Source: Syntrophaceae bacterium CG2_30_58_14 (GTDB lineage: Bacteria > Desulfobacterota > Syntrophia > Syntrophales > UBA5619). Taken from it: a stretch of DNA of 43,857 nt. Made by a program: the position numbers and the translations under genes. The stretch is from NCBI GenBank assembly GCA_001873745.1, contig MNZQ01000045.1:1-43857 (forward strand), written 5' to 3'. Of this stretch, positions 17,274 through 36,162 are shown piece by piece (position 1 is the stretch's first letter; each line of letters starts with the position of its first letter). The notes beneath the pieces are model-generated. The model worked only from the letters and a program-made list of their open reading frames with translations. It searched no databases and was not told the DNA's origin.

Positions 17274-18662
17274 TTACATCGCGTCGCGGAAGAGATCGAT
17301 GAGGCCGAAGGGCATCAGACCCAGGTAGATGATAACAATATTGAAGACACAGCAGAGAACTTTTTCATGGAAGGCCAGAGCGAGGGGACGCAGCTCCTCC
17401 GACTCGCGGGAATAACTGACCCGGACGAGGTTGAGGTAGTAGAAGAGGGAGATCACGGTGTTGACGGCCGCGATGATCACAATGGCGAGATAACCCGCCT
17501 TGAATGCGGTCACAAAAAGGAAGAACTTGCCGGTAAAACCGCCGGTCGGCGGAATCCCCGCCAGGGAGAAGGCGGCCACGGCCAGGGTCAGGGCCAAGAG
17601 CGGAGACCTTCGGGCAAGGCCGCTCAGGTCGTTGATCGTGACATTCTTCTCCCCCCTTCGCGAAAGCAGCATCACCACATAGAACAGGGCGAGATTCATG
17701 AAGAGATAAACGGCAATATAATAGGCAGCAGCCGCATTCCCCTCCCGGTTGAAGGAGAGAAGACCCATCATCAGGTAGCCTGCGTGGGCGATTCCCGAAT
17801 AGGCAAGCAGCCGCTTGAGATCCTTCTGGACCAGGCCCACCAGGTTGCCGAGGGTCATCGAAAAGGCGGCAAACACGATGATCACCGTCGCTAATTGCGC
17901 CGGGGACGACGAGGCCAGCATCGCCAGCCGGATCAAGAGCGCCGTGGCCGCGATCTTCGGAACCGTCGCAATAAACGTCGTCGTGGCGTCGGATGCGCCT
18001 TCGTAGATGTCCGGCGCCCAGAAATGGAGCGGGAAAAGGGAAAGCTTAAAGAAAAAGGCGCTCAGCGCGAGGATGATCGCCAGCACCCCCAGCGGCTGGG
18101 AAAGAAACTGGGGCAACCTTGCCATGATATCCGGGAGATAAGTGGAATGGGCCATGCCGTAGAGGTAGCCCATGCCGTACAGCATGATCCCCGTCGAAAT
18201 GGCGCCGAAAAAAAGATATTTCATCGCCGCTTCAATCTGCGTTCGGGTCTGGGCCTTTCGCAGCGGAACGATGGCATAGAGGCTGAAGGAGGAGATCTCC
18301 AGACTGACGACGATGGAAATAAGCTCGACCGAACTGACCAGGATCATGAGGCCCAGCGTGGAAAACCCGAGAAACATGAAAAATTCAGGCAAGTTTTCCA
18401 CTTCGTTCTCTTTCTCGAACATGAAAACGACGAGCGTAAATCCGGCGGAGAGCAATACCTTGAATATCTGGGAGAAAAAGTCAACCTGGTAGGCCCCGGC
18501 GAAAAAGACGCCCCGTGCGCCCGAGCAGACCAGCGTAATGAAGAAACCCACCAGCGCAAGGACCCTGGCCGCGGTAAATAGGGAGGTCCTTTTCTTCCCC
18601 ACCGACAGGAAGAGAAAGAAAACGGAAAACAAAAACATGTACAGTTCTGGAAGCAGCGTCAT
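17274..18662 (-). CDS. nuoN: Complex I subunit N (antiporter-like)
   Basis: This polytopic membrane subunit of about 462 residues has the channel residues expected of NuoN: Glu in VVSLEISSFSLYAI (TM5) and Lys in FFKLSLFPLHFW (TM7), plus the later IEGLVQKDLKRLLAYSG-type TM10/11 segment. It forms one of the proton paths in the membrane arm. I choose the ATG at 18662, which has AAGGGG nine bases upstream, over the TTG at 18671 in the track. It is the last gene of the nuo transcript, 13 bp after nuoM; no terminator is obvious behind it. Confidence 0.92.
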   Translation of the reverse strand: MTLLPELYMFLFSVFFLFLSVGKKRTSLFTAARVLALVGFFITLVCSGARGVFFAGAYQVDFFSQIFKVLLSAGFTLVVFMFEKENEVENLPEFFMFLGFSTLGLMILVSSVELISIVVSLEISSFSLYAIVPLRKAQTRTQIEAAMKYLFFGAISTGIMLYGMGYLYGMAHSTYLPDIMARLPQFLSQPLGVLAIILALSAFFFKLSLFPLHFWAPDIYEGASDATTTFIATVPKIAATALLIRLAMLASSSPAQLATVIIVFAAFSMTLGNLVGLVQKDLKRLLAYSGIAHAGYLMMGLLSFNREGNAAAAYYIAVYLFMNLALFYVVMLLSRRGEKNVTINDLSGLARRSPLLALTLAVAAFSLAGIPPTGGFTGKFFLFVTAFKAGYLAIVIIAAVNTVISLFYYLNLVRVSYSRESEELRPLALAFHEKVLCCVFNIVIIYLGLMPFGLIDLFRDAM

Positions 18663-18675
18663 CTTTGTCAACCCC

Positions 18676-20160
18676 TTACTGGGACAATTTATTCAGTTGC
18701 ATAAAAAGGTGTACGAGCGTGGTTTCCATAACCCGGACAAACGGGGCGGGGAAAAGCCCCACCCAGAGCACAAAAATGGCAAGCGGCGTCAGGTAAACAA
18801 ATTCCCGGACATTCAGGTCTTTGAAATCCCTCTTGTCTTCCCTGCCCCAGGCGATCTGTTTCAGAAGCTTCAGCATATAGGCGGCGGCCACGACCGCCCC
18901 AACCACGGCGAAGAAACCGGCCGTTCTGCTTCTAACAAAGGCACTGATCAGCACATACAACTCGCCCACAAAACTGTTCGTCCCGGGAAAGGCGAAGGAG
19001 GAGAGGGCAAACAGGCCGAAAAAACCCATATAGGCGGGCATGAATTTGCCCAAGCCCGCATTGTCATAGATCTGGCGGCTGTGCGTGCGCTCGTAAATAA
19101 TGCCCACCATCAGAAAGAGCGCGCCCGTGGTGACTCCGTGGTTGAGCATTTGGAGCATGGCGCCCATAAAACCATAGACCGTGAAGGTGAATATGCCCAG
19201 CGTCACGAAGCCCATATGGGCCACGCTCGAATAGGCGATCAGCTTTTTCATGTCCGTCTGGCTCAGGCAGACAAACCCCGCATAGATGATTGCAACGATG
19301 GAAAGAACCATCATGAAAGGGGCGAAATAGATACTGGCCAGGGGAACAATGGGAAGGCAAAACCGGATAAATCCGTATGTTCCCATCTTCAGCAGAATGC
19401 TCGCCAGCAACACGCTGCCCGCCGTCGGCGCCTCCGTATGGGCGGCCGGCAACCATGTGTGAAACGGAAACATGGGAACCTTGATCGCAAAGGCAATCGC
19501 AAAGGCCAGAAATACCCAGATCTGGAACGTGAAACTGTAGCCTTTGAACATCGCCTCGGGGATGCTGAAGGTGCCGTTCACAAGGTAGAGGGCGATGATG
19601 GCGACCAGAAGAAAAACGCTGCCGAACAACGTGTAAATGAAGAACTTCAGCGAGGCGTAATCCTTGTTCGGCCCGCCCCAGACGGCAATGAGAAGGTACA
19701 TCGGGATGAGCATCGCCTCCCAGAAAACGTAAAACAGGATAAAATCAAGGGCGCAGAAGACGCCGATCATCGCCGTTTCCATCAGCAGGATGCAGATCAT
19801 GAATTCCTTCACCCGCTTCTCGATCGCCTTCCAGGAGCAGAGAACACAGAGGGGGGAGATCATGGTCGTCAGCACGATCAGCATGATCGAGATGCCGTCC
19901 ACCCCGAGAGCGTAGGTAATGTTATAAGCCGGTATCCAGGCGAGACTCTCGCCGAACTGGAAAAGCGGCGTCCCGGCATCGAAGTTGAAAAAAAGGATGA
20001 GCGAGGCCGCCAGTGTCAGAAGCCCCGCGACGAAGGCCGTGGTCTTGATCTTGTTGCCGTCCTTCAGGAAAAGGATGAAGAACACCCCCGCCAGGGGCAG
20101 AAAGATCACCGTGGAAAGTATGGGGAACCCGAAGGGATTCATGGTCAAGTATGGCGACAT
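18676..20160 (-). CDS. nuoM: Complex I subunit M (antiporter-like)
   Basis: At 494 residues this is a typical NuoM. FYVFWEAMLIPMYLLI carries the TM5 Glu, AIKVPMFPFHTWLPAAH the TM7 Lys, and SQTDMKKLIAYSSVAHMGF the TM10-11 region; the NuoM-type ending FPAPFVRVMETT is also present. It pumps protons in the distal membrane arm. ATG is preceded by AAGGA and follows nuoL by 36 bp. The 549-codon plus-strand ORF opposite it is an antisense shadow. Confidence 0.95.
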   Translation of the reverse strand: MSPYLTMNPFGFPILSTVIFLPLAGVFFILFLKDGNKIKTTAFVAGLLTLAASLILFFNFDAGTPLFQFGESLAWIPAYNITYALGVDGISIMLIVLTTMISPLCVLCSWKAIEKRVKEFMICILLMETAMIGVFCALDFILFYVFWEAMLIPMYLLIAVWGGPNKDYASLKFFIYTLFGSVFLLVAIIALYLVNGTFSIPEAMFKGYSFTFQIWVFLAFAIAFAIKVPMFPFHTWLPAAHTEAPTAGSVLLASILLKMGTYGFIRFCLPIVPLASIYFAPFMMVLSIVAIIYAGFVCLSQTDMKKLIAYSSVAHMGFVTLGIFTFTVYGFMGAMLQMLNHGVTTGALFLMVGIIYERTHSRQIYDNAGLGKFMPAYMGFFGLFALSSFAFPGTNSFVGELYVLISAFVRSRTAGFFAVVGAVVAAAYMLKLLKQIAWGREDKRDFKDLNVREFVYLTPLAIFVLWVGLFPAPFVRVMETTLVHLFMQLNKLSQ

Positions 20161-20196
20161 GGTTTCTTTTTCCTTAAAAGCCTTTAAGTATCCACC

Positions 20197-21954
20197 CTAT
20201 AAAACCAGCCACAGGATCGCAAAAAACAGGAAAAGCGAAAGGCCGATATAGGTCTGAATTCTTCCCGTCTGCATTTTTTTTACGACGGAACCGAAATCCA
20301 TGACGGAATAGGCGGCGCCGTCAACAACCCCGTCAATGGCCTTCCGATCGAACAAGTAGGAAAGTTCCGCATTCTTGAAAAGCGCACGGAGCCCAAGCGT
20401 GCGGTAAAGTTCGCCCCACAGCGTGTCAACCGGCGCGATCACTTTTTCGTCAAACTTCATGAAGAGCAGCGTCCCCTTGCGATAGAAGTAATCGACGTCG
20501 AGGTTCATCTTCGCCTCGGGCGAGAGTTTCTTCACCATCAGGTAGAAGACCAGGCCCGTAAAGCAAAGGATCTGCATCGTCTCCGAGAGGTGGCCCAGGT
20601 TATAGGGGCGGTATTCCACCGGGAAGGGCAGCAGGACATACAACGTCTGCGGGAAGACGCCGATGATGAAGCAGAGAAGGGCGGTGAGTCCCATCGCCCA
20701 GAGCATGTTCAGCGGGGGTTCCTTGGCATGGAGAGGCTCCGCCGCTTCCTTGCCGAAGAAGGCAAAATAGGTCACCTTCAAGCCGACGGAGAGGAAGGTT
20801 CCGATGCCGGCCAGATTCAGGAACGACATGAGCCAGATCCTCCCCTCATGATGCGCCGCCGAAACGATCATCGATTTGCTGACAAACCCGCTGAACAGCG
20901 GAAATCCGGAAATGGATACGGCCCCCACGACGTAAAAAATCATCGTCAGCGGCATGTATTTGTATAAACCGCCGAGGCGGCTGAGTTTCGCCGTCCCGGT
21001 CACATAAAGCACGGACCCGGCGCCCATGAAGAGCAGCGCCTTGTAAAGGATGTGGGCAAAGGCGTGGGCTGCGGCGCCGTTCACGGCCATCGCGGTGCCA
21101 ATGCCGACGCCGGCCACCATGTAGCCCACCTGGCTGATGATGTGATAGGCCAGAACACGGCGGATGTCGTTTTCGATGACGGCGTAGCAGACCCCGAATA
21201 CCGTCATGGCCGTTCCCATGATCGCCAGGATTTCAAAGCCGGTAAAACCCCTGGCGAGAACGTAAACCGCCGTTTTGGTCGTAAACGCGCATAAAAATAC
21301 GGCGCCTTCGACGCTCGCCTCCGGATAGGCGTCCGGGAGCCATGCATGGAGGGGCAGTACGGCGGCGTTCAGTGCAAAACCGGCGAGAATCAGGTACTCC
21401 GGCCAGGAGGCGTTGGGGGGAAGGATGCTGTTGAAGGCAAGGCTCCCCGTCTTGTGGTAATAGAGCATCATCCCGGCAAAGAACAAGAGACCGCCGAAAA
21501 TATGGAACAGCAGATAGCGGAAGCCCGCCGCGATCGATTCTTTCTTCCTCCCATACCAGATGAGAAACACGGAAGAAAAGGCCATGATCTCCCAGAAGAT
21601 GAAGAGGGTCAGGTAATCGCCGGCAAAGAGGGCGCCGAGGGCGCTTCCCACATAAAAGAAACCGGCCATGTGGTGCCCGTCTTCTTCCCGGTGCAGCGCA
21701 TAGAGGGCGCCCAGGAAGGCCATGATCACGAATACCCACGCAAAGACCATGCTCAGCTTGTCAACGCGCCCGAACACCCCTTCCGCGCCGAGGAAATGGT
21801 ACGCCCCGTACATCCCGTACTGGGCAAACGCAACGGAGACGATGGCCGCAACGGGGATGAGGAGAATAAACCCCTTTTTTGCCTTCCCCCTAAGCAGCGG
21901 CAAAAGCAAGGCTCCCACGAAAAAGAAGAGCGCCGGATGAATCCAACTATCCAT
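20197..21954 (-). CDS. nuoL: Complex I subunit L (NuoL-like), TM7 lysine replaced by Asn
   Basis: This 585-residue antiporter-like subunit has a C-terminal end that fits NuoL (IDGVVDGAA, then KKMQTGRIQTY before the last helix). TM5 keeps FWEIMAFSSVFLIW, and HAWLPDAYPEA and FTTKTAVYVLARG (TM7-8) are clear. At the position of the conserved TM7 lysine, five residues before PLH, it has Asn (NAAVLPLHAW). Nearly the same architecture, including DVDYFYRKG near the C-terminus, is found in the 574-residue protein at 28.5-30.3 kb. It overlaps the small DYY protein gene by 8 bp. The NuoL call rests on position and tail; it could also be called an MrpD-like subunit. Confidence 0.82.
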   Translation of the reverse strand: MDSWIHPALFFFVGALLLPLLRGKAKKGFILLIPVAAIVSVAFAQYGMYGAYHFLGAEGVFGRVDKLSMVFAWVFVIMAFLGALYALHREEDGHHMAGFFYVGSALGALFAGDYLTLFIFWEIMAFSSVFLIWYGRKKESIAAGFRYLLFHIFGGLLFFAGMMLYYHKTGSLAFNSILPPNASWPEYLILAGFALNAAVLPLHAWLPDAYPEASVEGAVFLCAFTTKTAVYVLARGFTGFEILAIMGTAMTVFGVCYAVIENDIRRVLAYHIISQVGYMVAGVGIGTAMAVNGAAAHAFAHILYKALLFMGAGSVLYVTGTAKLSRLGGLYKYMPLTMIFYVVGAVSISGFPLFSGFVSKSMIVSAAHHEGRIWLMSFLNLAGIGTFLSVGLKVTYFAFFGKEAAEPLHAKEPPLNMLWAMGLTALLCFIIGVFPQTLYVLLPFPVEYRPYNLGHLSETMQILCFTGLVFYLMVKKLSPEAKMNLDVDYFYRKGTLLFMKFDEKVIAPVDTLWGELYRTLGLRALFKNAELSYLFDRKAIDGVVDGAAYSVMDFGSVVKKMQTGRIQTYIGLSLFLFFAILWLVL

Positions 21955-22195
21955 AATAATCCTCGTCCTTGCTCAGAAACAGGTGCGCGATGCCTTTGCA
22001 TATCTTGATGAGCAGAAAGCAGCCCGCCAGCGCAAAAAACGTCCAGAACGCCCAAATCTTATCCACAACGTAATGGGCGTCCTCCCGCGGCAGCAAGATG
22101 TCCAGCAAAACCAGCGCGCCCAGGAATACAAAAAAGGCGATCCTCAGCGGCCCGGCTTTCGCTCTCAGGTATTCTATGATCTTCAATACATTCAT
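21947..22195 (-). CDS. Small two-helix membrane protein ending in DYY, nuo-linked copy
   Basis: This 82-residue protein has two predicted membrane helices (IAFFVFLGALVLLDILL and IWAFWTFFALAGCFLLIKI) and a charged tail SKDEDYYG. It aligns with the 73-residue protein at 30247-30468 across the second helix and tail (GC-LL/LI, K-I/L-A/G-LFL, DYY). It lies between an MrpD/NuoN-like and the NuoL-like gene and overlaps the latter by 8 bp, just as in the other copy. I know no described function; a small structural subunit holding the two antiporter-like proteins together is a reasonable guess. Confidence 0.75.
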   Translation of the reverse strand: MNVLKIIEYLRAKAGPLRIAFFVFLGALVLLDILLPREDAHYVVDKIWAFWTFFALAGCFLLIKICKGIAHLFLSKDEDYYG

Positions 22196-22204
22196 GGTAA
22201 ACCC

Positions 22205-23674: not shown

Positions 23675-23677
23675 AGG

Positions 23678-24001
23678 TCAGTCTTTCATCTCCTTCAGAT
23701 CTCCGCCCTCGATGTGCCTGTATTTCTTGAAAATAAGCATGATGATGCCGAGCGCGATGGCTGATTCCGCCGCAGCAATCCCCATGATGATGAGCGTAAA
23801 AGCCATCCCGTAGCCGTTCTCGGGGGAGACGAATCGGTTCAGGGCAGCCAGGTTCAACCCGGCGCCGTTCATGATCAGCTCCATGGAGACCAGCATCCCG
23901 ATCAGGGTGCGCCGGTAAACCACGCCGGCAATGCCGCAAAAGAGCAAAAACAGGGCTACAAACAAATAGATGTGCTGATAGTTGTATAACAAATCGGTCA
24001 T
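23678..24001 (-). CDS. nuoK: Complex I subunit K
   Basis: The 107-residue, three-helix subunit carries the two membrane glutamates of NuoK, in LVSMELIMNGAGLNL (TM2) and AAAESAIALGI (TM3). It is part of the E-channel/first pump between the quinone site and the antiporter-like subunits. It overlaps nuoJ by 4 bp (ATGA) and ends 3 bp before the inserted MrpD-like gene. Confidence 0.95.
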   Translation of the reverse strand: MTDLLYNYQHIYLFVALFLLFCGIAGVVYRRTLIGMLVSMELIMNGAGLNLAALNRFVSPENGYGMAFTLIIMGIAAAESAIALGIIMLIFKKYRHIEGGDLKEMKD

Positions 24002-24525
24002 TTGTTCCCCCTGGAAAAAAGGGCAAGCATGATCGCGCCTAAAATGGCCACAACCACAAGAAGCGATATCAGCTCAAAGGGCAGAACCAGATCGTTGAAA
24101 AAAAGGCGGCCGATCTCTTTTGTCGTGATCTTGAAAGAGGGACTCTCCGCCAAGGGGACACCTTGCGGCAAGGTGTCCCCAAACGTTTCCATGACGAACC
24201 GGACGAACGTAAATAGGGAAACCAGCGCAACGCCAAGCGCCGCGACGAATTTTCCGACGGTGGTCCACTCCTTCGGTTTCCGGTAAAGCGGGCCGATCAG
24301 CATGATGGCAAAGGCGATCAGAACGGAAACGGCCCCCACATAGATCAGGATCTGCATCATGGAGAGAAAGGGGCTGTTCAGGAAGATATAAAGACCGGCG
24401 ATTCCGAACATGGCGGCGACCAGCCCCAACAGGGCATAGACGATCGACCCGGATAAAACGGCCATTGCGGCGCCGCCCAGCGTCGCGACAACGGTGATCA
24501 GGAAGATGATTTCACCCAAATTCAT
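23998..24525 (-). CDS. nuoJ: Complex I subunit J, with an in-frame palindrome
   Basis: This 175-residue membrane subunit has the NuoJ pattern of five helices, with LGGAAMAVLSGSIVYALLGLV, ILIYVGAVSVLIAFAIML (TM3 with the pi-bulge region) and FELISLLVVVAILGAIMLA. Between TM4 and TM5, residues about 116-124 (DTLPQGVPL) are encoded by a 27-bp perfect palindrome with GGGGACACC arms, apparently an insertion tolerated in a loop. It overlaps both nuoI and nuoK by 4 bp. Confidence 0.92.
   Translation of the reverse strand: MNLGEIIFLITVVATLGGAAMAVLSGSIVYALLGLVAAMFGIAGLYIFLNSPFLSMMQILIYVGAVSVLIAFAIMLIGPLYRKPKEWTTVGKFVAALGVALVSLFTFVRFVMETFGDTLPQGVPLAESPSFKITTKEIGRLFFNDLVLPFELISLLVVVAILGAIMLALFSRGNK
24154..24180. 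repeat. GGGGACA-type palindrome inside nuoJ
   Basis: Arms of 13 bp (GGGGACACCTTGC and its exact complement) flank a single central base. The 27-bp unit equals nine codons and preserves the nuoJ frame. Outer bases GGGGACA/TGTCCCC match the palindromes in dnaG and before rpoD. Confidence 0.8.
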
Positions 24526-24977
24526 GATGTCTTTTTCCTTTTTTCAAATTCCTTGACCAGATCGAAATGAAAATCCTCCCGTTTAAAGCCTGCAAGGTTG
24601 AAATCTGCCGAAAAGTCGAGGGCAGCGGACGGGCAGGTTTCCACACAGATGCCGCACTGGCTGCACGTCGTAAAATCGAGGAGATAAGAGGTAGCGGTCT
24701 TCCTCTTTTCCCCTTCCCGCTTTTCCCCCTCGACCTTCTTGATCGATCCCGACGGACAGTTCCTGACGCAGATGCCGCAGGCAATACAGCCGTTTTTCTC
24801 CGGGTTGTCGCGGTCGGCAACAAGCTTCGTATGGCTGCGGAACCGCGGGCTGATATTGAGCAACTGGCGCGGATACTGGGAGGTCACCACCGGCTGAAAG
24901 AACGCCTTGATCGTAACCCCCAGACCGGCAATCAGGGAACCCGCGCCTTTGATGAATGCCGAAGGTGATGCCGTCAT
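24522..24977 (-). CDS. nuoI: Complex I subunit I, 2[4Fe-4S] ferredoxin-like
   Basis: About 151 residues with two cluster motifs, [12 protein letters not shown] and [12 protein letters not shown], which hold clusters N6a and N6b linking the input side to NuoB. With no NuoE, F or G nearby, this subunit may be the entry point for ferredoxin, as proposed for related 11-subunit enzymes. A Lys/Glu-rich insert ([11 protein letters not shown]) separates the two motifs. The start is the ATG at 24977 overlapping nuoH by 4 bp; the track's longer start runs back into nuoH. Confidence 0.93.
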
Positions 24978-25945
24978 AACTTCAAAAGCCCTCCCGTAAT
25001 GAGCAGGTTGATAAAAGATAGAGGGATCAGCGCTTTCCAGGAGATGTTCAGCAACTGGTCGAACCTCACGCGGGGATAGGTCCATCGGAGCCACATGATG
25101 ACGAAAACGAGGAGATACGACTTGAGCAGAAACCAGATGATGCCGGGTAAAAAGGGCCCCTGGTATCCGCCGAGGAAAAATGTGACGGCAATGGCGCTGA
25201 CGATAAAAATGTTCGTATATTCAGCCAGAAAGAAGAGCGCAAACCGCATGCCGGAATATTCCGTGTGATAGCCCGCCACCAGTTCGCTTTCCGCTTCGGG
25301 CAGGTCGAAGGGGGTTCGGTTGGTCTCGGCGACGCCGGCGATAAAATAGATCAAAAAGGCGAATGGCTGGTAAACGACAAACCACAGCCCATGCTGCGCC
25401 TCCACGATGCTCTTCAACGAGAAGGAGTTGGTCATCATGATGATGGGCAAAAGCGCCAAGAGCAGCGGGATCTCATAGGCAATGTTCTGGGCGATGCTCC
25501 GGATGGCCCCGATCAGCGCATATTTGTTGTTGGACCCCCAGCCGGCCATCAGGATGGAAAAGACCGAAAGGGATGAAAACGCCAGGATCACCAAGATGCC
25601 CACGTTGATGTCCATGACCTGCAGCGAGGCGTCGAAAGGAATAACAACGAAGGATACCAGAACGGGGACGAAAATGATCATCGGGGCGAGATAGTAGAGG
25701 GGTTTGTCCACCTCCCGCGGCGTCAGGATCTCCTTGCCCAGCAGTTTCAGCGCATCGGCGATCGGCTGGATCAGACCATAGGGGCCGACCTCCTTCGGGC
25801 CGATCCGCCGCTGCATATGACCGGCCACCTTTCTCTCCGCCCAGGTCAAGATCAGCGCGTTCAGCACGACAAAAACCAGCACGCCGACAAGGCCGACAAC
25901 CATTTTTACCGTTTCCCAGCCAATCATGTTTCCGATCTGTTCCAT
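24974..25945 (-). CDS. nuoH: Complex I subunit H
   Basis: A 323-residue polytopic protein with the NuoH signatures [33 protein letters not shown] and [26 protein letters not shown] (cited in part as [12 protein letters not shown] and [15 protein letters not shown]). It anchors the peripheral arm and shapes the quinone cavity. The length is normal and all signature acidic residues are present. It lies 15 bp after nuoCD and overlaps nuoI by 4 bp. Confidence 0.96.
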
Positions 25946-25960
25946 TGGGCCATCACTAAA

Positions 25961-27535
25961 TTATCGATCGATTTCCGGTATCACCAGGTCCAGGCTCCCG
26001 AGGATCGCCACCGCATCGGCCAACAGGTTCCCTTTGGCCAGCTCGGGGAAGATCATCAGGTTCGAAAAAGAGGGCACCCGCCACTTCATCCGGTACGGCT
26101 TGTCGCTTTCATCGCTGACGATATAGATGCCGAGCTCCCCGCGGGGCGTTTCCACCGTGTGATAGAGATCCCCCTTCGGCGGTTTCAGTTTCCTGGGCGC
26201 CTTTTCCGTCATGATGGGGCCTTCGGGAAGTCGGGCCAACGCCTGCTCGATGATATTCAGCGCGTTTTCCATCTCCCGGATGCGGACTTGGTACATGTCC
26301 AGGGCATCCCCGCGCGTCCCCACGGGGACATCGAAATCCATTTCTCCATAGGCGGCGCAGGGTTCCGATTTTCTGATATCCATCGGTATCCCCGCCCCGC
26401 GCAGGACCGGCCCGGAAACGGCCTGTTTTCTCGCCCTCTCCTTCGTAATCACGCCGATGCCTCGCGTCCGGTTGGTAAAAATCACATTGCCGCCGACCAG
26501 CTTTTCATACAAGGAGAAGCGGCTCCGCAACCTCTCGATGAAGGCCCTTGTTCCGGCGACGAAGGCATCGTCCACATCGTTGTAAAGACCGCCAAAACGG
26601 AAATAACAGTAGGTGAGCCGGGAGCCGGTGACGGGCTCCAGGATGTCGTTGATCTCTTCCCGGTCGTCAAAGACAAAGAGGAACGGGGTCAGCGCCCCCA
26701 GATCGGCAAGATAGGCGCCCAGCCACATGAGATGGCTGGACAACCGGTTGAGTTCGGTCAAAATGACGCGCACGTAATTCGCGCGGTCCGGCACCGGGAT
26801 GCCGCAGAGCCGCTCCACGGCGGTCACATAGCCGAGATTGAAGGCCATGGGCCCCAGATAGTCCATCCGGCCCGTGTTGGGAAGAAACTGAAGATAGCTT
26901 CTGTTTTCCGCCATCTTCTCGTGCATCCGGTGGAGATAGCCGAGGACCGGTTGCGCATCTTCGATATACTCGCCGTCCATCTTCAGCACGACCCTTAACA
27001 CGCCGTGCGTGCTCGGATGCTGAGGCCCGAGGTTGACAAAGAAGGTATCCTCCCCCTCTCCCGGACGGAAGGCGCCGAGCGCCTTTTTATCTTCGTCGGA
27101 AACGGGAATCTTCTCCTTGCGCAGCGGATAAAAATCGATCCCTTCGTGGAGAAAGAGATAGGTCATATTGGGATGGCCGTCGAAGGAAACGCCGAAAAAC
27201 TCGCGGATCTCGCGCTCATGCCAGTATGCGCAATCAAAAACGGTGGAAATCGTGGGAGCGACGGGTTTGGCGGGATCGATCTTCAGCGTGATCTTTACCT
27301 TGCAGAGCGATGCATGGTTGCTGAAGATGTAAACCAGCTCAAGATACTCCTTATAATCCACGCAGATGAGAGCGGCCAGATAAAAACCGCGTTCGTCGAA
27401 GAAACGGGCGACGTTCAGAAGATCCGCCGAGGCCACTTCGGCAAAAAGATGGTATCCCCGCTCCCGATAGTCCGCCTCCCCAACGGGGGTCTCCTTGAGG
27501 GTGGCGCCAAGCTCCGCTTTAATTCGCTCTACCAT
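25961..27535 (-). CDS. nuoCD: Fused complex I subunits C and D
   Basis: About 524 residues. The NuoC-like part at about 1-165 includes [13 protein letters not shown] and [14 protein letters not shown]; the NuoD part follows with [14 protein letters not shown], whose His is in the quinone pocket, [12 protein letters not shown], and the family ending [12 protein letters not shown] fusion occurs in several bacterial lineages including gamma- and some Desulfobacterota. The first 31 residues of the track ORF lie inside nuoB; the ATG at 27535 overlaps nuoB by 7 bp. Confidence 0.95.
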
Positions 27536-28050
27536 CGACTTTCCGGTCCCGGGAAACGTCTTTTTCCCGTTATTTTTTCCTCTAACTTCAGGAATCCTTC
27601 GAGAAGGGCTTCCGGTCTGGGGGGGCATCCGGGGACATACACGTCCACCGGCACGAGGAGATCAACGCCTTCGATAACGTTGTATTGACCCTCGAAAACG
27701 AACGGGCCGCCGGAGATGGCGCAGTTTCCCATCGCAAGGACCCATTTCGGCGACGGCATCTGCTCGTAGAGGGTGACAAGAACGGGCGCCATCTTTTTGG
27801 TGACGGTGCCGGAGACAATCATCAGGTCGGCCTGCCGGGGGGTGGCCCGGAAAACCCCCGCCCCGAACCGGTCCAGATCGAAGCGGGACATGGCGGTGGA
27901 CATCATCTCGATCGCACAGCAGGCGAGCCCAAACGTCATGGGCCAGATGGAATTGGCCCGGGCCAGATCAAGCACCTTTTCCACCACGGCAAATTTTACT
28001 GGGAAAACTTCCTTTTCCAGGCAAACACCCCTTTCCCCCAAGCATACCAT
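27529..28050 (-). CDS. nuoB: Complex I subunit B
   Basis: The protein has [17 protein letters not shown] and further Cys in MGNCAISGG and [14 protein letters not shown], the four ligands of cluster N2 that reduces quinone. The start is uncertain: the track begins with GTG at 28080, I use ATG at 28050, and a GTG GTG pair further in is possible. All give some overlap with nuoA except the last. No choice has a strong ribosome-binding site, which suggests coupling to nuoA translation. Confidence 0.93.
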
Positions 28051-28376
28051 ATCGCCAGGGCAAGGATTAGGACAAAGCACAACAGTGCGTAAAATTCATC
28101 CGGCCTTTCACCCTTCGCATAGTTCAACGCAACCGGGAAAAGGTAGAGTACGTCCACATCAAAGGCGATGAAGATGAGGGCATAGATGTAATAGTGCATG
28201 CCGTACCTTACCCAGGCGCTCCCGTAGGGTTCGATGCCGCACTCATAGGTATTGAGGGTTCTGGCCCCTTTTGTCCTTGGGGCCAGGATATAGGCGATGA
28301 TGATCGGGGCAAGTGTAAAAAGGAGGGCGACAACGATGAAAAGGGCTACCGGGGCAAATTCCTGCAAGCTATTCAT
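27996..28376 (-). CDS. nuoA: Complex I subunit A
   Basis: About 126 residues with three helices and the NuoA signature [38 protein letters not shown] (YECGIEPYG and [10 protein letters not shown]). It is the first gene of the nuo transcript. I use the ATG at 28376; the track's TTG is four codons earlier. A strong promoter lies 67 bp upstream. Confidence 0.95.
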
Positions 28377-28442
28377 AACGCCACTCAATCCAGGTCATTA
28401 TTTCACACGAAACAGATCAGAGGTTTACCACTGAACGGCGCG

Positions 28443-28471
28443 ACTATAATGACGGCAATTACGGTTGTCAA
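28443..28471 (-). promoter_or_regulatory. Strong sigma-70 promoter of the nuo operon
   Basis: TTGACA and TATAGT on the minus strand are separated by exactly 17 bp, the best promoter match I see in the window. The predicted start near 28436 gives a leader of about 60 nt before nuoA. It means nuoA-N can be transcribed independently of the antiporter cluster upstream. Confidence 0.75.
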
Positions 28472-28507
28472 GAACTTTCTTCTCCAATGGTAAAAAAATC
28501 CCATCCG

Positions 28508-28537
28508 CTTGATTCTACAAGCATTGTGGAGATCAAG
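28508..28537 (-). terminator. Possible terminator of the Mbh/Mrp-type cluster
   Basis: CTTGATTCTACAA pairs with TTGTGGAGATCAAG (one bulge, one mismatch) around a three-base loop, overlapping the stop of the NuoL-like gene. A T7 run on the minus strand follows, but nine bases after the stem, so termination is probably weak and some read-through into nuo is likely. Confidence 0.35.
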
Positions 28538-30257
28538 AGAGAAGCAATCCCCAGACGCTGAATAGCAGGTAACTAAACAACACCAATAGAATAAATAGTT
28601 TAATAACGGGGCGGTGCGCGTCGGGGCTGAAATTTTCCTCACCCGCGGCGCCGGTAAACAGGGCCGCCGGGTTGCGACCGAACACCGCAAGCCTCTGTAC
28701 CGCGTAGTTCATCAGCCTCTCCACCCCGTTGAAGACAGCCTCGAGGTCTTCCAGGAAAATTCTCTGCACCCATCCCGCGGGTCTGCGGTAAAACCAGTCC
28801 ACATCCAGGGTAATGCCGGCTTCACCGGCGACTTTCTTGCGGAAAATCCAGAAGGCGGCAAAAGTGAAGAGCAGGATCTGCGAGGTCTCCACAACGTGGG
28901 GGAATGTATAGGGCGCAAAATGCACCGTGTAGGGCAGCATGTCGTATAACAGTCCGGGCGCCACCCCGTGTAAAATACAAAAAAAGGCCGCCGCCTCCAT
29001 TGCCAGATACATATTCCGCGGCGGGGGAAGCGGGGTTAAGCCCCGGTTCTCGCCGTACCACGTGAAGTAAGGCAATTTTAAGCCCACGGAAAGAAAGGTT
29101 CCCACGGAGGCCAGCAGCATAAGCAGCATGGCGATAGGGTAATGCGCCTCGCCCGCCGCCGCCACCACCATGGACTTGCTGATGAAACCATTGAAGAGGG
29201 GAAACCCGGAAATGGAAAAGGCGCCGATCATGTAGAACCATAAAATCAGGGGTTGCTTTTGCGCCAGTCCGCCGAGTTCCGTCAGTTTGCTTTTCCCCGT
29301 AGTCTGGAGGACCGCCCCGGCGCCCATGAAAAGCAATGCCTTGTATAAAATGTGACTGAATGCGTGGGCCGTGGCGCCATTGATCGCCAGCTCTGTGCCG
29401 ATGCCGGCGCCGGCCACCATGTAGCCCACCTGACTGATGATATGGTAGGCCAATATCTCCCGTATATCGTTGGCCAGGACCGCAAAGACCACGCCGTACA
29501 AGGTCATCAGGACGCCCAGCGCGATCAGGATCTCCCAGCCGGGAAAAATCCTCAAAAGGACATAAACGGCGGTCTTGGTGGTCAGGGCGCTTAAGAAAAC
29601 AGCCCCGGTTACCGTCGCTTTGGGATAGGCGTCAGGAAGCCAGGCGTGCAGGGGAATGACGGCGGCATCAAGGGCCACGCCCGCCAAAATCAGCCATGAC
29701 GAAAGAGAGCTTTGGGAAGTTAGTTGCTCAATAACGATGCTGCCCGTTTCTTGCGTATGGATCAGGATGCCCGCAAGGAGCAACCCTCCCCCGAAGAGGT
29801 GCATAAACAGATAGCGCATTCCCGCCCTTGCGGATTCCCGCGTACCCCTGGCCCAGATCAGGTAGGTGGAAGCCACAGCCATCAATTCCCCGAAGACAAA
29901 CATAGTTATAAAGTCGCCGGCAAAGGTTACCCCCAGCGCGCCCGTCGCGTATAAAAGGGCCGCCGTCTGCTGGCCTGTTTCCTTGATATGGAAGGCAAAG
30001 AGGCAGCCGATAAAGGTGATGAGGGCAAATATCACCCCGAAAATTCTGCTCAACCGATCGACCTTATATACGACAAGCTGATAATCCATCAGTTCCATGG
30101 TAAGGTGAGTGCCTGAGGGCGCCAGCCAGACAAGCGCCAGGGCGAGGAGGGGAGCCAGGAGCGAAAAAGTGGACCGAAAACTGCGGGGCAGCAGGGGCAG
30201 CAAAAGGGCGCCCGCGAGCATGATCAGGGCCGGAGGAAACGTTGCTTCAATCGGCAT
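28533..30257 (-). CDS. NuoL-like antiporter subunit of the Mbh/Mrp-type cluster, TM7 lysine replaced by Asp
   Basis: A 574-residue paralogue of the nuo-linked NuoL-like protein. Shared landmarks include FSISGFPLFNGFISKSM, IREILAYHIISQVGYMVAGAGIG, and DVDWFYRRPAG near the C-terminus; it lacks the QTGRIQTY tail of the other copy. At the TM7 lysine position it has Asp (DAAVIPLHAW), while TM8 keeps Lys in LTTKTAVYVLLR and TM5 keeps Glu in FGELMAVASTYLIW. Start ATG 30257 is chosen over the track start, giving an 11-bp overlap with the small DYY gene. It is last in this transcript. Confidence 0.85.
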   Translation of the reverse strand: MPIEATFPPALIMLAGALLLPLLPRSFRSTFSLLAPLLALALVWLAPSGTHLTMELMDYQLVVYKVDRLSRIFGVIFALITFIGCLFAFHIKETGQQTAALLYATGALGVTFAGDFITMFVFGELMAVASTYLIWARGTRESARAGMRYLFMHLFGGGLLLAGILIHTQETGSIVIEQLTSQSSLSSWLILAGVALDAAVIPLHAWLPDAYPKATVTGAVFLSALTTKTAVYVLLRIFPGWEILIALGVLMTLYGVVFAVLANDIREILAYHIISQVGYMVAGAGIGTELAINGATAHAFSHILYKALLFMGAGAVLQTTGKSKLTELGGLAQKQPLILWFYMIGAFSISGFPLFNGFISKSMVVAAAGEAHYPIAMLLMLLASVGTFLSVGLKLPYFTWYGENRGLTPLPPPRNMYLAMEAAAFFCILHGVAPGLLYDMLPYTVHFAPYTFPHVVETSQILLFTFAAFWIFRKKVAGEAGITLDVDWFYRRPAGWVQRIFLEDLEAVFNGVERLMNYAVQRLAVFGRNPAALFTGAAGEENFSPDAHRPVIKLFILLVLFSYLLFSVWGLLLS

Positions 30258-30468
30258 CGTAGTAATCCTCCCTTTTGCGCAAAAAGAGTTTACCCAGCGA
30301 TTTGGCAAAGAAAACAATTAATAAACAGCCGATAAAACCCAAGAGGCCAAAGAAAGCCGGGATGCGGTTCCACCACGCATCATGAGCAACGTCAGGGGGC
30401 ATCGTGAATCCCGCCAGGAGAGAAACAATGGTCATGATGCCCAGTAATATCCACCGCCATCTCTTCAT
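30247..30468 (-). CDS. Small two-helix membrane protein ending in DYY, Mbh/Mrp-linked copy
   Basis: 73 residues, with helices WILLGIMTIVSLLAGFT and AFFGLLGFIGCLLIVFF and a basic-acidic tail RKREDYYDAD. It is the counterpart of the 82-residue protein at 21947-22195, in the same position between an MrpD/NuoN-like and a NuoL-like gene. It overlaps its upstream neighbour by 4 bp and its downstream neighbour by 11 bp. No known family comes to mind. Confidence 0.75.
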   Translation of the reverse strand: MKRWRWILLGIMTIVSLLAGFTMPPDVAHDAWWNRIPAFFGLLGFIGCLLIVFFAKSLGKLFLRKREDYYDAD

Positions 30469-31967: not shown

Positions 31968-31980
31968 TGCCTGATAGCCG

Positions 31981-33495
31981 TTACATACCCAACGGGATGA
32001 TCCGTTGAATAACCTCCTTCACGATATTTGCGTTCCATAAACCGATCAAGAGCAGGGAAAAGGAGAGAATCACTACGGGCATCATCAGAGAATATTCCTC
32101 CTCGCCGATAAGGGACCCCTTCCTCTTTTCCCCATCCGGGGAGAGGTTTTCACCCGCCGCTGGCGCCGGAGGCGGCGCAAGATAAACCTTCTCCAGGATC
32201 CGGAAGAAATAGACGGCATTTAGCAGACTGCTGATAAGAATAACCGCCAGAAACACCCAGTTTCCCTTGTCAATAGCCCCCAGGGCCAGGTACCACTTGC
32301 TGAAAAAGCCGGCCGTGGGGGGAAGGCCGATCATGGAAAGCGCGGCCAAGGTAAAAGCGGCCATGCTCCAGGGCAATTTTTTTCTGTAAGAGGCATCGAA
32401 CCGGGAGATATCCGAATGACCGAAGCGCTTCCTCAGGTTGGCGGCCACGAGGAACAAGGTCCCCTTCATAAAGGCATGATTCAAAATGTGAAGCACCGCG
32501 CCTATGTAGCCGAGGGGATTCGCCAGTCCTATTCCCAGACCGATATAGCCGATCTGGGCAATGCTGCTGTAGGCCAGCATCCTTTTCAGCTCTTTTTGGG
32601 CCATCGCCAGCACCGATCCGTAGAGGATGCCGATGGCCGCAAGCCAGGCGATCAAGTCCGTAATCGGCAAGGATTGGCTTACAAATTTAACGCCGAAGAC
32701 AAAAAAAAGGACGCGAATAATCACATAGGCGGCGACTTTTGTACCGATGGGGGCGATAAGCGCCGATGAAGTTGACGGGGCATAGGTATAGGCATCAGGC
32801 AGCCAGCCATGGAGGGGGAAGATGGCCATCTTGATCCCCATGCCGATGACCATGAACGAAAGGGCGGCCGCTACGGCAGGATTTCCGTAAACCAGAGGGA
32901 GGATGTTCCTGACATCCGCCATGTTCAGAGAACCGGTGACGATGTAGAGAAAACCAAGCCCCAGGAGATAAAAGGACGCCCCGATCGTTCCCATGATCAG
33001 GTAGCGAAAAGCGGCAACCGGCGCCTGCTTCTCGCCGATGCCGATCAGCCCGTACATGGACAAGGAGAAAATTTCCAGGAATACATAGAGGTTGAACAGA
33101 TCGCCCGTGACGATGATGCCGTTTGCGCCGCAGAGAAACAGCAGGGTCAGCGCATAGTAGGGAACCGATTTCCCCGGAATCTCCCTTCCCTGTATGCCGC
33201 TCGAATGCCAGAGAACAAAAAAGGCGACGACATTGACCACCACCGCAATAAATGAGGAGAGGGGATCCAGCACATATTCGATCCCGATCGGGGGGAACCA
33301 GCCGCCGAAATGGTAGGTCAGCGGACCGTTTCCCCAGACGCGGAAAACATTGTAGCAAGAGATGACCACGGAAAGCAGAGAGGCAGCCATGGCTAACGGA
33401 TAGGCCACTTTTGCTTTCTTGATCGCCAATACGGGAATGGAGATCGCCGTTGACAACAGCAGTAAAGGGACCAAAGCGGGCGAGTTATGTAACAT
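31981..33495 (-). CDS. mrpD: Cation antiporter subunit D (MrpD/MbhH-like)
   Basis: About 504 residues with TM5 Glu in YVFLEIFSLSMYGLIG, TM7 Lys in GIKMAIFPLHGWLPDAY, and AYSSIAQIGYIGLGIG. A cytosolic insert (APPPAPAAGENLSPDGEKRKG) lies near the C-terminus. As in Mrp and Mbh, it should be the ion-translocating large subunit. The true start is the ATG at 33495, sharing one base with the mrpC stop (TGATG); the first 70 codons of the track ORF read mrpC out of frame. Confidence 0.92.
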   Translation of the reverse strand: MLHNSPALVPLLLLSTAISIPVLAIKKAKVAYPLAMAASLLSVVISCYNVFRVWGNGPLTYHFGGWFPPIGIEYVLDPLSSFIAVVVNVVAFFVLWHSSGIQGREIPGKSVPYYALTLLFLCGANGIIVTGDLFNLYVFLEIFSLSMYGLIGIGEKQAPVAAFRYLIMGTIGASFYLLGLGFLYIVTGSLNMADVRNILPLVYGNPAVAAALSFMVIGMGIKMAIFPLHGWLPDAYTYAPSTSSALIAPIGTKVAAYVIIRVLFFVFGVKFVSQSLPITDLIAWLAAIGILYGSVLAMAQKELKRMLAYSSIAQIGYIGLGIGLANPLGYIGAVLHILNHAFMKGTLFLVAANLRKRFGHSDISRFDASYRKKLPWSMAAFTLAALSMIGLPPTAGFFSKWYLALGAIDKGNWVFLAVILISSLLNAVYFFRILEKVYLAPPPAPAAGENLSPDGEKRKGSLIGEEEYSLMMPVVILSFSLLLIGLWNANIVKEVIQRIIPLGM

Positions 33496-33869
33496 CACGA
33501 TGACTTCATCCGTTCCATCAGGACCGATTCGTCTAATGTTTTGTAATGACGGTAGATTACAATCGCCAACGAGAAGGCGACGCCGCTTGTCGCCACGCCC
33601 ACCACAATGGCGGTCAGCATCAGGCAGTGCTGCAACGGGCTGATGTACTTTGCCGCATCGACAACGCCTGTTACGGGATCGAGTACAGGAACCGTCGCCG
33701 ACCACTTCACGGCGCTGGCCACGTAAAACATGATAATGGAAACCTGGAAAATGGTCATCCCAATCAATTTCTTCGCCAGATTATTTTTAAAAATCATTCC
33801 ATAAAGGCCGATAATCAGCAGGGCGATGATGCTCCAATAGACATAATGGCCAAAAATGAAATCAGTCAT
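33495..33869 (-). CDS. mrpC: Cation antiporter subunit C (NuoK-like)
   Basis: A 124-residue three-helix protein homologous to NuoK, with GLYGMIFKNNLAKKLIGMTIFQ in helices 1-2 and LMLTAIVVGVATSGVAFSLAIVIY in helix 3. The DPVTGVVDAAKYISPLQHCL segment before helix 3 is typical of MnhC/MbhG. It overlaps mrpB by 8 bp and mrpD by 1 bp. Confidence 0.92.
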   Translation of the reverse strand: MTDFIFGHYVYWSIIALLIIGLYGMIFKNNLAKKLIGMTIFQVSIIMFYVASAVKWSATVPVLDPVTGVVDAAKYISPLQHCLMLTAIVVGVATSGVAFSLAIVIYRHYKTLDESVLMERMKSS

Positions 33870-34302
33870 GGGGATAGCCTTCCAGCAAATCGTCGTAGAT
33901 GGCGACCAAAATGGCCATCACGGCCAGACCGACACCGATTTCCACCATCAGGATGCCCAGGGCGCGAAGCCCGGCTTCGGTGAAGCCGGCGAAAGGGAGG
34001 AAACCATAGTTCAAGAACTCTCCCCCCGAAATCATAGCAAGAAAGCCGGTACCGAAGTAGATCAGAACGCCGATCGACCCCAACGGCGTCCCCAGAATTC
34101 TCTTGAATTGAATCTGAGCGATGTCAAAACCGGCGGCCAGACGAATCAGCAGCAGGGCCGCGGCAAGCAGAGTGCCGCCCTGGAAGCCCCCCCCGGGGCT
34201 GTAATGGCCGTGAAAGATGACATAAAGGCCAAAAATCATGATAAAAGGGGAAACGACGCGGCTTACCATCAATATGATCGGATTGTATTTATGTTTGCGC
34301 AT
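33862..34302 (-). CDS. mrpB: Cation antiporter subunit B
   Basis: 146 residues with the MnhB signature VSPFIMIFGLYVIFHGHYSPGGGFQGG (GHYSPGGGFQGG) and four helices. It corresponds to MbhF in archaeal membrane-bound hydrogenases and is part of the sodium-translocating module. It overlaps the MbhE-like gene by 14 bp. Confidence 0.92.
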   Translation of the reverse strand: MRKHKYNPIILMVSRVVSPFIMIFGLYVIFHGHYSPGGGFQGGTLLAAALLLIRLAAGFDIAQIQFKRILGTPLGSIGVLIYFGTGFLAMISGGEFLNYGFLPFAGFTEAGLRALGILMVEIGVGLAVMAILVAIYDDLLEGYPHD

Positions 34303-34633
34303 CGGCGCCCGCCTTCAGTGGTTTTTTATCGTCCCGATTTGTTCTCCTCTTCCGTAATACAAGGTAACAGATCAGCCCGGCCGTCAGGATCACGGTTTCC
34401 TCGCCGAGGGTGTCGTAACCCCGGTAATCCGCCAGAATGACCGTGACCATGTTCAGAGTTTCCGCGTCCCGGTAAGCGTTGCGAATGTAGTATGACGACG
34501 CCCCCCAAGACCCTGCCGGGCTTTTCTCCCGGTGCATGACGGCATCCCCGTCGCCGCGGTTGGGCAATCCCAGGGAGGCATAGATCAGCAAGGCCCCGAA
34601 AGAGATCAAGAGAAGCCAGTTGACTATCTTCAA
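34289..34633 (-). CDS. MbhE-like subunit (MrpA C-terminal part)
   Basis: The 114-residue protein has an N-terminal helix (WLLLISFGALLIYASLGL) and the motif LNMVTVILADYRGYDTLGEETVILTAGLI, which matches the MbhE domain at the end of MrpA in other Mrp systems. A hydrophilic middle (GDGDAVMHREKSP) and Lys/Arg-rich tail surround it. Its presence as a free gene follows the archaeal Mbh arrangement. Confidence 0.8.
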   Translation of the reverse strand: MKIVNWLLLISFGALLIYASLGLPNRGDGDAVMHREKSPAGSWGASSYYIRNAYRDAETLNMVTVILADYRGYDTLGEETVILTAGLICYLVLRKRRTNRDDKKPLKAGADAQT

Positions 34634-34875
34634 TCGCCGCTCCTCCTTGAGGTTTGAAAAATCAGGACTACAAAAAAGATTCCGGTTACACCCGCGCCGA
34701 CGACAGCCTCCGTAAAACCTACGTCAATTGCGCCCATAACGGTATAAATCAGGGCGGATATGAAGCTGAAGGCGCTCAGGGTAACGACTGCGGCAAGGAG
34801 GTCTTTGATGTAAAGAGAAATCAGGGCGGTGATGATCAGGAAAACAAAAAGAAGCGCTTCTATTTCCCAGTACAT
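34630..34875 (-). CDS. DUF4040/MbhD-like subunit
   Basis: 81 residues in three helices. LLAAVVTLSAFSFISALIYTVMGAIDVGFTEAVVGAGVTG is characteristic of DUF4040, also found within MrpA and as MbhD; the AIDVGFTEAVVG glutamate is the counterpart of a conserved acidic residue. It starts 3 bp after mrpG and overlaps the MbhE-like gene by 4 bp. Confidence 0.82.
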   Translation of the reverse strand: MYWEIEALLFVFLIITALISLYIKDLLAAVVTLSAFSFISALIYTVMGAIDVGFTEAVVGAGVTGIFFVVLIFQTSRRSGD

Positions 34876-34878
34876 GGT

Positions 34879-35196
34879 CTAATCCGCCTTTCCCGCGTTT
34901 TTCCTGAACCAGGGTTTCAGCCCGCTGCGGAGCGCCGCGTTGGCAAGGGCATGGGTGCCCGTGGGATTCGTGAGAAAAACAAAGACGAGGGCAAAAAACA
35001 GCTTGGCGCTGTTGAGGGTGAAGCCCTCGATCAAAATCATTCCGAAGATCACGAGCATGATGCCGAGCGTGTCGCTTTTCCCGGTGGCATGATTCCGGCA
35101 GTAGAAGTCAGGGAGTCGTATCAATCCTATGCTGCCAACCAGCAGGAAAAAAGCGCCTCCGATAACCGCCGTCATGCCCAGGATGTTTCCAATCAT
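34879..35196 (-). CDS. mrpG: Cation antiporter subunit G
   Basis: 105 residues with GAFFLLVGSIGLIRLPDFYCRNHATGKSDTLG (IGLIRLPDFYCRNHA), the MnhG/PhaG signature, and VFLTNPTGTHALANAA. It is a small membrane subunit of the Mrp-type exchanger. It overlaps mrpF by 4 bp. Confidence 0.9.
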   Translation of the reverse strand: MIGNILGMTAVIGGAFFLLVGSIGLIRLPDFYCRNHATGKSDTLGIMLVIFGMILIEGFTLNSAKLFFALVFVFLTNPTGTHALANAALRSGLKPWFRKNAGKAD

Positions 35197-35465
35197 TCTT
35201 TCTCTTTCTCGGCTCCCAGAAATTTTGCGATGGCGATGGCGCCAATAAAATTGAGAACGGCATATGCCAGGGTAATATCGACAAACATGTCGAATCTGTT
35301 GAAAATAAAACCGATCGCGAGGATGAGCACCATCGTTTTGGTGCCTATCGCCCCGGCGCCGAGCATCCGGTCAAAGATCGTGGGACCCTTGACGACCCGG
35401 TAAAGGGGGATGAAGATGATAACGGTCAATACAATGGTGTAGTAGAGAAAGAATTTATCCATCAT
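35193..35465 (-). CDS. mrpF: Cation antiporter subunit F
   Basis: 90 residues, three helices, with YRVVKGPTIFDRMLGAGAIGTK, the conserved GPT-DR motif of MnhF. In Mrp complexes this subunit is part of the small-subunit group next to E and G. It overlaps mrpE and mrpG by 4 bp on either side. Confidence 0.92.
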   Translation of the reverse strand: MMDKFFLYYTIVLTVIIFIPLYRVVKGPTIFDRMLGAGAIGTKTMVLILAIGFIFNRFDMFVDITLAYAVLNFIGAIAIAKFLGAEKEKE

Positions 35466-36031
35466 ATATCGGCTTCGTTTTTGATCACTTCAACATCCCT
35501 GACAACCTGCCCCGGTCTCCTTGCATAAAGTTTTGCAACCTCTCCCGGCAGGGTTCCGTCAATGATGCCCGAGCAAGAAATATCCATCAGGGAGTGGACC
35601 AGAAACTTCTCCTGCTCGATTTCCAGGGTTATGGTTCCCGGGGTCAGCGTAATGGAATTTCCGAGGATCACTTTCGCGCTTGTATTGACAAGCCCTGTTT
35701 TAAAACGGACCAATGCAGGGTCGATGGGACATTTGGGATGCAAGACGACGAAGGCCACCTGCATGCTTGCAATGATGATCTGCCAGAGCAGCCAGGGAAT
35801 ATAATAGATCAGTCTCCGGATACGGAAAAGCTGGTCGTTCGAGTGCTGTTCCATCGCAAGAAGACGTCTTCTCAAGGGATAATGGATGGAGATGATCACG
35901 GCGACGGAAAAAACTCCGAACGAGATATGCATCCAATCGTAATGACCACTCAAAAGCAGCCAGAAGATCATCAGCATGGCGGCTTGAATGATGGTGTTTC
36001 GTAAAAAGCGTGATTTACGTAGAGATCTCAT
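35462..36031 (-). CDS. mrpE: Cation antiporter subunit E
   Basis: 189 residues with two N-terminal helices and the MnhE domain: LLWQIIIASMQVAFVVLHP, LGNSITLTPGTITLEIE and FLVHSLMD. It is the first gene of the 11-gene antiporter cluster, so a full operon E-F-G-(DUF4040)-(MbhE)-B-C-D begins here, the order of archaeal mbhA-H. The ATG has no clear Shine-Dalgarno. Confidence 0.92.
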   Translation of the reverse strand: MRSLRKSRFLRNTIIQAAMLMIFWLLLSGHYDWMHISFGVFSVAVIISIHYPLRRRLLAMEQHSNDQLFRIRRLIYYIPWLLWQIIIASMQVAFVVLHPKCPIDPALVRFKTGLVNTSAKVILGNSITLTPGTITLEIEQEKFLVHSLMDISCSGIIDGTLPGEVAKLYARRPGQVVRDVEVIKNEADI

Positions 36032-36136: not shown

Positions 36137-36162
36137 AAAAAAGCCGCCCAAAACCGTGGGCG
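36137..36162 (-). terminator. Rho-independent terminator of engB
   Basis: On the minus strand CGCCCA and TGGGCG pair around a six-base loop and are followed by GCTTTTTT. It lies about 30 bp past the engB stop. Confidence 0.7.

Follow-up and report, generated by a model that had tools for sequence, protein, structure and literature searches.

In the rhizobial 'green complex I', two MrpD-like subunits take the place of NuoL (Degli Esposti & Martinez Romero 2016, cited by PMC9040806), and Manganitrophaceae possess a five-pump hybrid complex I with a further 26-aa helix insert (PMC9040806). Among Mrp antiporters, the mrp cluster of 'Ca. Nitrospira alkalitolerans' continues past mrpD with two NuoM/NuoL-like genes (PMC7784846). 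Here we describe a locus of Syntrophaceae bacterium CG2_30_58_14, in which an Mrp unit and a complex I (Nuo) unit lie next to each other. The DNA analysed (43,857 nucleotides, hereafter the window) corresponds to the initial 43.9 kb of the 58.5-kb contig C196, which belongs to a 3.04 Mb assembly of 204 contigs with a completeness of 97%. On the minus strand, read from position 36031 to 17274, the genes for MrpE, MrpF, MrpG, MbhD (DUF4040), MbhE, MrpB, MrpC, MrpD, the large antiporter-like protein L500, a 73-aa protein and the large protein L594 are followed by those for NuoA, NuoB, NuoCD, NuoH, NuoI, NuoJ, NuoK, L489, an 82-aa protein, L585, NuoM and NuoN; gene families were assigned by profile matches to Pfam and NCBIfam. 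In the following, L500 and L489 are referred to as L1, and L594 and L585 as L2, of the respective unit. The gene run is not a chance assembly, since all of its genes match their families strongly and both modules recur as units in tens of genomes. We conclude that it very probably encodes two separate machines, i.e. an Mrp antiporter and a complex I lacking NuoE, NuoF and NuoG (EFG-less), whose coupling, if any, would occur via shared H+/Na+ gradients and not via shared subunits. The assignment to a syntroph lineage made in the initial annotation is supported, the nearest named relatives being Syntrophus metagenome-assembled genomes (MAGs).

Separability of the Mrp and Nuo units

The Mrp block comprises 7.6 kb and represents an indel between engB and nuoA. 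In a congener (G010), whose Nuo proteins are 83-95% identical to those of the window, engB adjoins nuoA and the Mrp block is absent; no additional MrpD/L594-like gene was found among the matches of this genome. A further genome (G016) carries an Mrp block and a Nuo block on separate contigs with unrelated neighbours, and G163, which belongs to another family of the same phylum, has a stand-alone Mrp block, whose subunits are 74-88% identical to those of the window (64% for the small protein). Because this identity is set against an RpoD identity to the window genome of 53% for G163 (76% for G011, a relative of the same family but a different genus), we conclude that the Mrp block travels horizontally as a unit of its own, which would have been inserted here between engB and the nuo promoter.

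The distribution of L2 relatives points in the same direction. An L2 homologue is present in 173 of 395 genomes of the phylum, and each of the 80 named loci with L2 relatives represents either a Nuo unit (A-B-C-D-H-I-J-K-L1-small-L2-M-N) or an Mrp unit (E-F-G-MbhD-MbhE-B-C-D-L1-small-L2), with some variation in order, while none of them is composite in the arrangement described here. Close pairs of L2 genes on the same contig occurred, among the matches listed, only in this genome, G011 and G309. A conservation of the same gene order across Desulfobacterota, as considered in the initial annotation, was thus not found: among the loci and genomes examined, the adjacency is shared only with G011, in which the Mrp block is located at the same engB/nuoA site.

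The junction itself also separates the units. The Mrp genes had been described as running directly into nuo, which does not apply to the L594/nuoA junction, where a gap of 156 bp constitutes the largest spacing in a run that otherwise ranges from a 16-bp overlap to a 36-bp gap. Within this gap lies a promoter-like site (28443..28471, minus strand) with the sequence TTGACA-17-TATAGT read from 28471 to 28443, which matches at 11 of 12 positions and ranks first among the ten sites of this kind in 19 kb. As ten such sites in 19 kb are about the chance expectation, what gives this one weight is how well it scores, where it lies and that it recurs: a TTGACA-led site is also located upstream of nuoA in G010 (TTGACA-17-TATACT), G016, G011, G014 and G046, with a weaker second hexamer in the latter three; similar sites thus precede nuoA in relatives without the Mrp block as well. 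At the other end of the Mrp block, a terminator-like hairpin (36145..36162, minus strand) is situated 3' of engB and upstream of mrpE. The best explanation of this arrangement is that the Mrp and Nuo blocks would form two adjacent transcription units.

Given two complexes, their adjacency might nevertheless be functionally selected, with the exchanger converting the H+ gradient of complex I to a Na+ gradient or back under co-regulation, a reading to which we give some credit but which we do not favour. It would account for the occurrence of the Mrp block in the same slot in two genera, for a Balneolaceae MAG whose otherwise ordinary nuo operon contains an entire Mrp unit in antisense orientation, flanked by nuoJ-K and nuoL-M (locus L087, 399-13268), and for a relative whose slot holds another gene of the ion-transporter superfamily. 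However, the content of this slot beside nuoA varies among relatives, comprising nothing, the Mrp block, a CitMHS_2 transporter gene together with a universal stress protein gene (G014) or TauE (G013) (loci L034, 16000-18800, and L035, 10023-10838), and where a genome has both units, they are mostly located apart from each other, as exemplified by the one-contig genome G175, where the two L2 genes are separated by 1.4 Mb.

Gene complement and electron input

The Mrp gene order E, F, G, MbhD, MbhE, B, C, D on one strand, the presence of seven large antiporter-like proteins on this strand and the absence of NADH-input subunits, all reported in the initial annotation, were confirmed by the Pfam and NCBIfam matches, which revealed no nuoE, nuoF or nuoG within the gene run 17274-36031. 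The Mrp set is complete, consisting of MrpB to MrpG and the C-terminal part of MrpA as MbhD and MbhE. All on the minus strand, mrpE (MnhE; 35462..36031; PF01899, E 2e-29) is followed by mrpF (35193..35465; PF04066), mrpG (34879..35196; PF03334), mbhD and mbhE as the first and second half of the MrpA C-terminal part (34630..34875, PF13244, and 34289..34633, PF20501), mrpB (33862..34302; PF04039), mrpC (33495..33869; PF00420) and mrpD (31981..33495; PF00361 and an MrpD-like NCBIfam). The open reading frame of mrpD extends to 33705; its likely real start is at 33495, resulting in a protein of about 504 aa instead of 574. Past mrpD, three more antiporter genes had been counted, but there are actually two large ones, encoding L500 (30465..31967; PRK08375/PRK07234-like antiporter subunit according to NCBIfam) and L594 (28533..30257; 574 aa from the likely real start at 30257), which enclose the gene of the hydrophobic 73-aa protein (30247..30468).

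On the same strand, the Nuo unit consists of nuoA (27996..28376; PF00507), nuoB (27529..28080; PF01058 and PRK06411 above cut-off, 5' start uncertain), a nuoCD fusion (25961..27628; PF00329 and PF00346, probable start near 27535), nuoH (24974..25945; PF00146), nuoI (24522..24977; Fer4 families, two 4Fe-4S motifs), nuoJ (23998..24525; PF00499), nuoK (23678..24001; PF00420), the genes of L489 (22205..23674; PRK08375-like, 753 bits, cut-off 663), the 82-aa protein (21947..22195) and L585 (20197..21954), nuoM (18676..20160; TIGR01972, 596 bits) and nuoN (17274..18671; TIGR01770, 346 bits). The complex I set thus includes the Fe-S and quinone subunits. The series from nuoA to nuoK followed by L, M and N, as originally proposed, stands for A, B, CD, H, I, J, K, M and N; in contrast, NuoL is replaced by L489, the 82-aa protein and L585, so that four large genes follow nuoK. 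This gene content supports the earlier identification of a putative EFG-less complex I and of a predicted Mrp-type Na+/H+ module.

Gene content, indel, horizontal-transfer signal, separate promoter-like site, cassette duplication, differing helix predictions and residue patterns are results of computation, whereas complex assembly, ion, electron donor and physiology, including direction and stoichiometry, are inferences. The Mrp unit would work by itself as a secondary Na+(K+)/H+ antiporter. Its MrpA would be divided into MbhD and MbhE, with an L1-small-L2 triplet standing in for the NuoL-like half, so that three antiporter-like subunits (L2, L1 and D) result. In the Nuo unit, the other triplet would replace NuoL and give four antiporter-like subunits (L2, L1, M and N), and electrons would probably pass from reduced ferredoxin to menaquinone, or in the reverse direction, with ion pumping.

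Residues proposed to line the cation path of Mrp antiporters (numbering according to PMC7419157) are partly retained. In the window, equivalents of E706a (in MbhD), D792a and E796a (both in MbhE) and D29f (in MrpF) are kept, while H37c and H40c are replaced by Gln and Ile in MrpC and D35f by Gly in MrpF. The 35 related blocks likewise keep E706a, D792a and E796a and mostly show Gln, Ile and Gly/Asn/Ser at H37c, H40c and D35f, respectively. The ion specificity of the Mrp unit may differ from that of the studied Mrp antiporters.

Regarding electron input, ferredoxin is a plausible donor to the window's complex I, which we derive from the absence of NuoEFG in the run and of Rnf; neither Rnf nor Nqr was found in the genome. 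The occurrence of nuoEFG elsewhere in the genome, named in the initial annotation as a point that would speak against its proposal, is partial. A second nuo cluster on contig C126, which is cut at the contig start, encodes NuoD, NuoG and NuoH to NuoN with an ordinary NuoL, but in place of a full NuoF it has a flavoprotein (locus L003, 965-2983) that combines the C-terminal domain of NuoF with a GltD/Nfn-like FAD oxidoreductase. Full NuoF domains are encoded in the genome only on C41 and C50 (frames of 638-646 aa): the C41 homologue, located next to NrpR, is a fused NuoEF-like protein that additionally contains a ferredoxin domain, and the C50 homologue adjoins subunits of a 2-oxoacid:ferredoxin oxidoreductase and a NuoE.

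It seems improbable to us that the Mrp block is part of a redox enzyme, either Mbh/Mbs-like or Hdr-linked, instead of a secondary antiporter. Although the split into MbhD and MbhE resembles that of Mbh/Mbs, and although the G016 block is followed by an Hdr/Nfn-like flavoprotein and the block of three loci by a molybdopterin oxidoreductase-type gene, the block lacks MbhJ-N-like genes, and a consistent redox partner was sought downstream of the stand-alone Mrp blocks without success, as the neighbours vary among loci. For the NiFe hydrogenase large subunit, the genome yielded no match above the cut-off and one sub-threshold fragment match, and a reading as an Mbh hydrogenase was rejected on this ground. 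The stand-alone Mrp units with such a flavoprotein or oxidoreductase-type gene behind them include those of L026 (1-3633), L067 (11470-13515) and L170 (6478-8556). Outside the locus, a CHAT-domain protease-like protein with TPR-like repeats is encoded at the window edge (3-2417).

The L1-small-L2 cassette and its predicted lateral helix

The L1-small-L2 triplet is present twice in the locus, after mrpD and at the nuoL position. L594 and L585 have PRK12668 in common (710 and 744 bits, cut-off 564), and L489 scores above the PRK08375.1-1 cut-off, with the same families being nearest to L500. The hydrophobic small protein of about 80 aa between L1 and L2 matches no Pfam or NCBIfam family; this applies to the window copies and to the 108 sequences that were gathered, which share the C-terminal consensus FWAxFGFxGCxxxIxxSKxLGHxxLxxxEDYYD.

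A tree was calculated for 89 L2 proteins, which were labelled as Mrp or Nuo according to their gene context. The window's Mrp L2 falls into a clade of 13 rows that contains Mrp copies only (support 100), whereas its Nuo L2 groups with Nuo-type sequences from the same family. Two changes of the context label suffice on this tree, compared to a mean of 23 after shuffling. The Nuo types do not form one clade (rejected with p-AU 1e-59, for a group defined by gene context with one row relabelled after the first tree), because an Mrp clade of the Desulfotignum/Desulfurivibrio type is nested among the Nuo types. Rooting the tree did not yield a clear direction from Mrp to Nuo (support 66/21), and only the nested Mrp clade is firm. 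A recent duplication of the cassette inside this genome was rejected, since its L2 proteins share about 51% identity and are located in different clades.

Both L2 proteins match the folds of NuoL and MrpA in their AlphaFold2 models (mean predicted local distance difference test (pLDDT) values of 83 and 86), in which the predicted lateral helix spans residues 489-562 (74 residues) of the Nuo copy and 488-528 (41 residues) of the Mrp copy. In the Mrp module, the NuoL-like N-terminal part of MrpA with its HL helix may be represented by L1 (without HL) together with L2 and its 41-residue lateral helix. The distance from the motif to transmembrane helix (TM) 16 amounts to 82-89 in nearly all Nuo-type L2 proteins and to 59-74 in most of the window copy's Mrp clade, and is longer or variable in other Mrp units; compared to canonical NuoL, the sequence of the L2 helix is longer by about 12 to 25 residues, depending on the anchor. 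Each L2 has a predicted brace helix of its own (74 vs 41 residues), which agrees with the expectation for separate complexes with four and three antiporter units. Based on the two AlphaFold2 models and the constant Nuo-type spacing, the brace helices may be fitted to four (Nuo) and three (Mrp) antiporter units.

The TM7 lysine (NuoL K229) has been described as universally conserved (PMC4938563). It is absent from all 89 L2 proteins, 88 of which, L585 included, carry Asn, while it is kept in all L1 proteins (86/86); L2 retains the TM5 Glu as well as the Lys residues of TM8, TM11 and TM12. The Asp of the window's Mrp L2 is unique (1/89) and corresponds to a one-base change, either real or an assembly error. 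Tentatively, and with the odds rather against it, we propose that L1-small-L2 is an exchangeable distal end-module for Mrp antiporters and EFG-less complex I, in which the length of the brace helix would be set by the antiporter units spanned, L2 would differ in pumping from an ordinary antiporter unit and act as a terminal gate or cap together with the ~80-aa protein, and the cassette would have moved between machine types at least twice. An Mrp unit in G309 (C13; locus L169, 1-9600) contains a tandem second small-L2 pair, which results in four antiporter-like subunits.

The initial annotation had considered one very large pump or two interacting ones. In a single composite machine, Mrp would attach to the complex I arm at its distal end, and a redox-driven Na+/H+ pump with seven antiporter units would result; adjacent modules on the same strand, similar cassettes and the same site in G011 would fit this, but we reject it as scarcely credible in view of the optional, horizontally moving insert, modules that are complete alone in other genomes, the Nuo unit of G010 without adjacent Mrp, the separate promoter-like site of nuo, and a terminal L2 with a brace helix of different predicted length in each module, where a fused arm would need one.

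Several points weigh against our preferred reading of two separate machines. The adjacency at the same site in G011 implies that the arrangement may be selected or ancestral and not accidental, the pLDDT of the lateral-helix regions is just 50-77, and the absences are provisional for a genome in 204 contigs at 97% completeness. The Mrp-nuo adjacency itself calls for caution against being read as a supercomplex. With the same end-module in a secondary antiporter and a respiratory complex I of one genome, differing in helix length and both devoid of the key lysine, the locus offers natural variants for asking if ion pumping is common to all antiporter-like subunits and how pumping units per electron pair evolve in number.

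Comparison with known systems

The closest counterpart of the Nuo unit is the green complex I, since the order NuoK-MrpD1-small-MrpD2-NuoM-NuoN without NuoL is the same in Sinorhizobium meliloti CP050513, whose MrpD2 is 52.9% identical and has an equal motif-to-TM16 spacing. In contrast to the window's unit, which lacks EFG and has a fused nuoCD, the rhizobial form possesses nuoE, nuoF and nuoG. As judged from its sequence, the window's Nuo unit is an EFG-less complex I whose membrane arm is of the green type, a form widespread in Desulfobacterota-type genomes. More than three antiporter-like subunits and a lengthened C-terminal amphipathic helix are also features of the Manganitrophaceae Complex_I_3 and the Nitrospira 2M complex I (PMC9040806); however, these have a second NuoM, whereas the window has L1 and L2 for NuoL and a single NuoM.

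The Mrp unit likely has its counterpart among the Group 3 Mrp clusters, such as that of 'Ca. Nitrospira alkalitolerans', with a full Mrp set and two large antiporter genes past mrpD; in the window, nuo comes next. Archaeal Mbh and Mbs (6cfw, 6u8y) share the E-F-G-D-E-B-C-D order and provide the top PDB matches for several small subunits, whereas the window's block has no hydrogenase or sulfane reductase genes and carries the additional L1-small-L2 cassette. Both machines are of a known kind, each being a variant, and they would share a transferable end-module.

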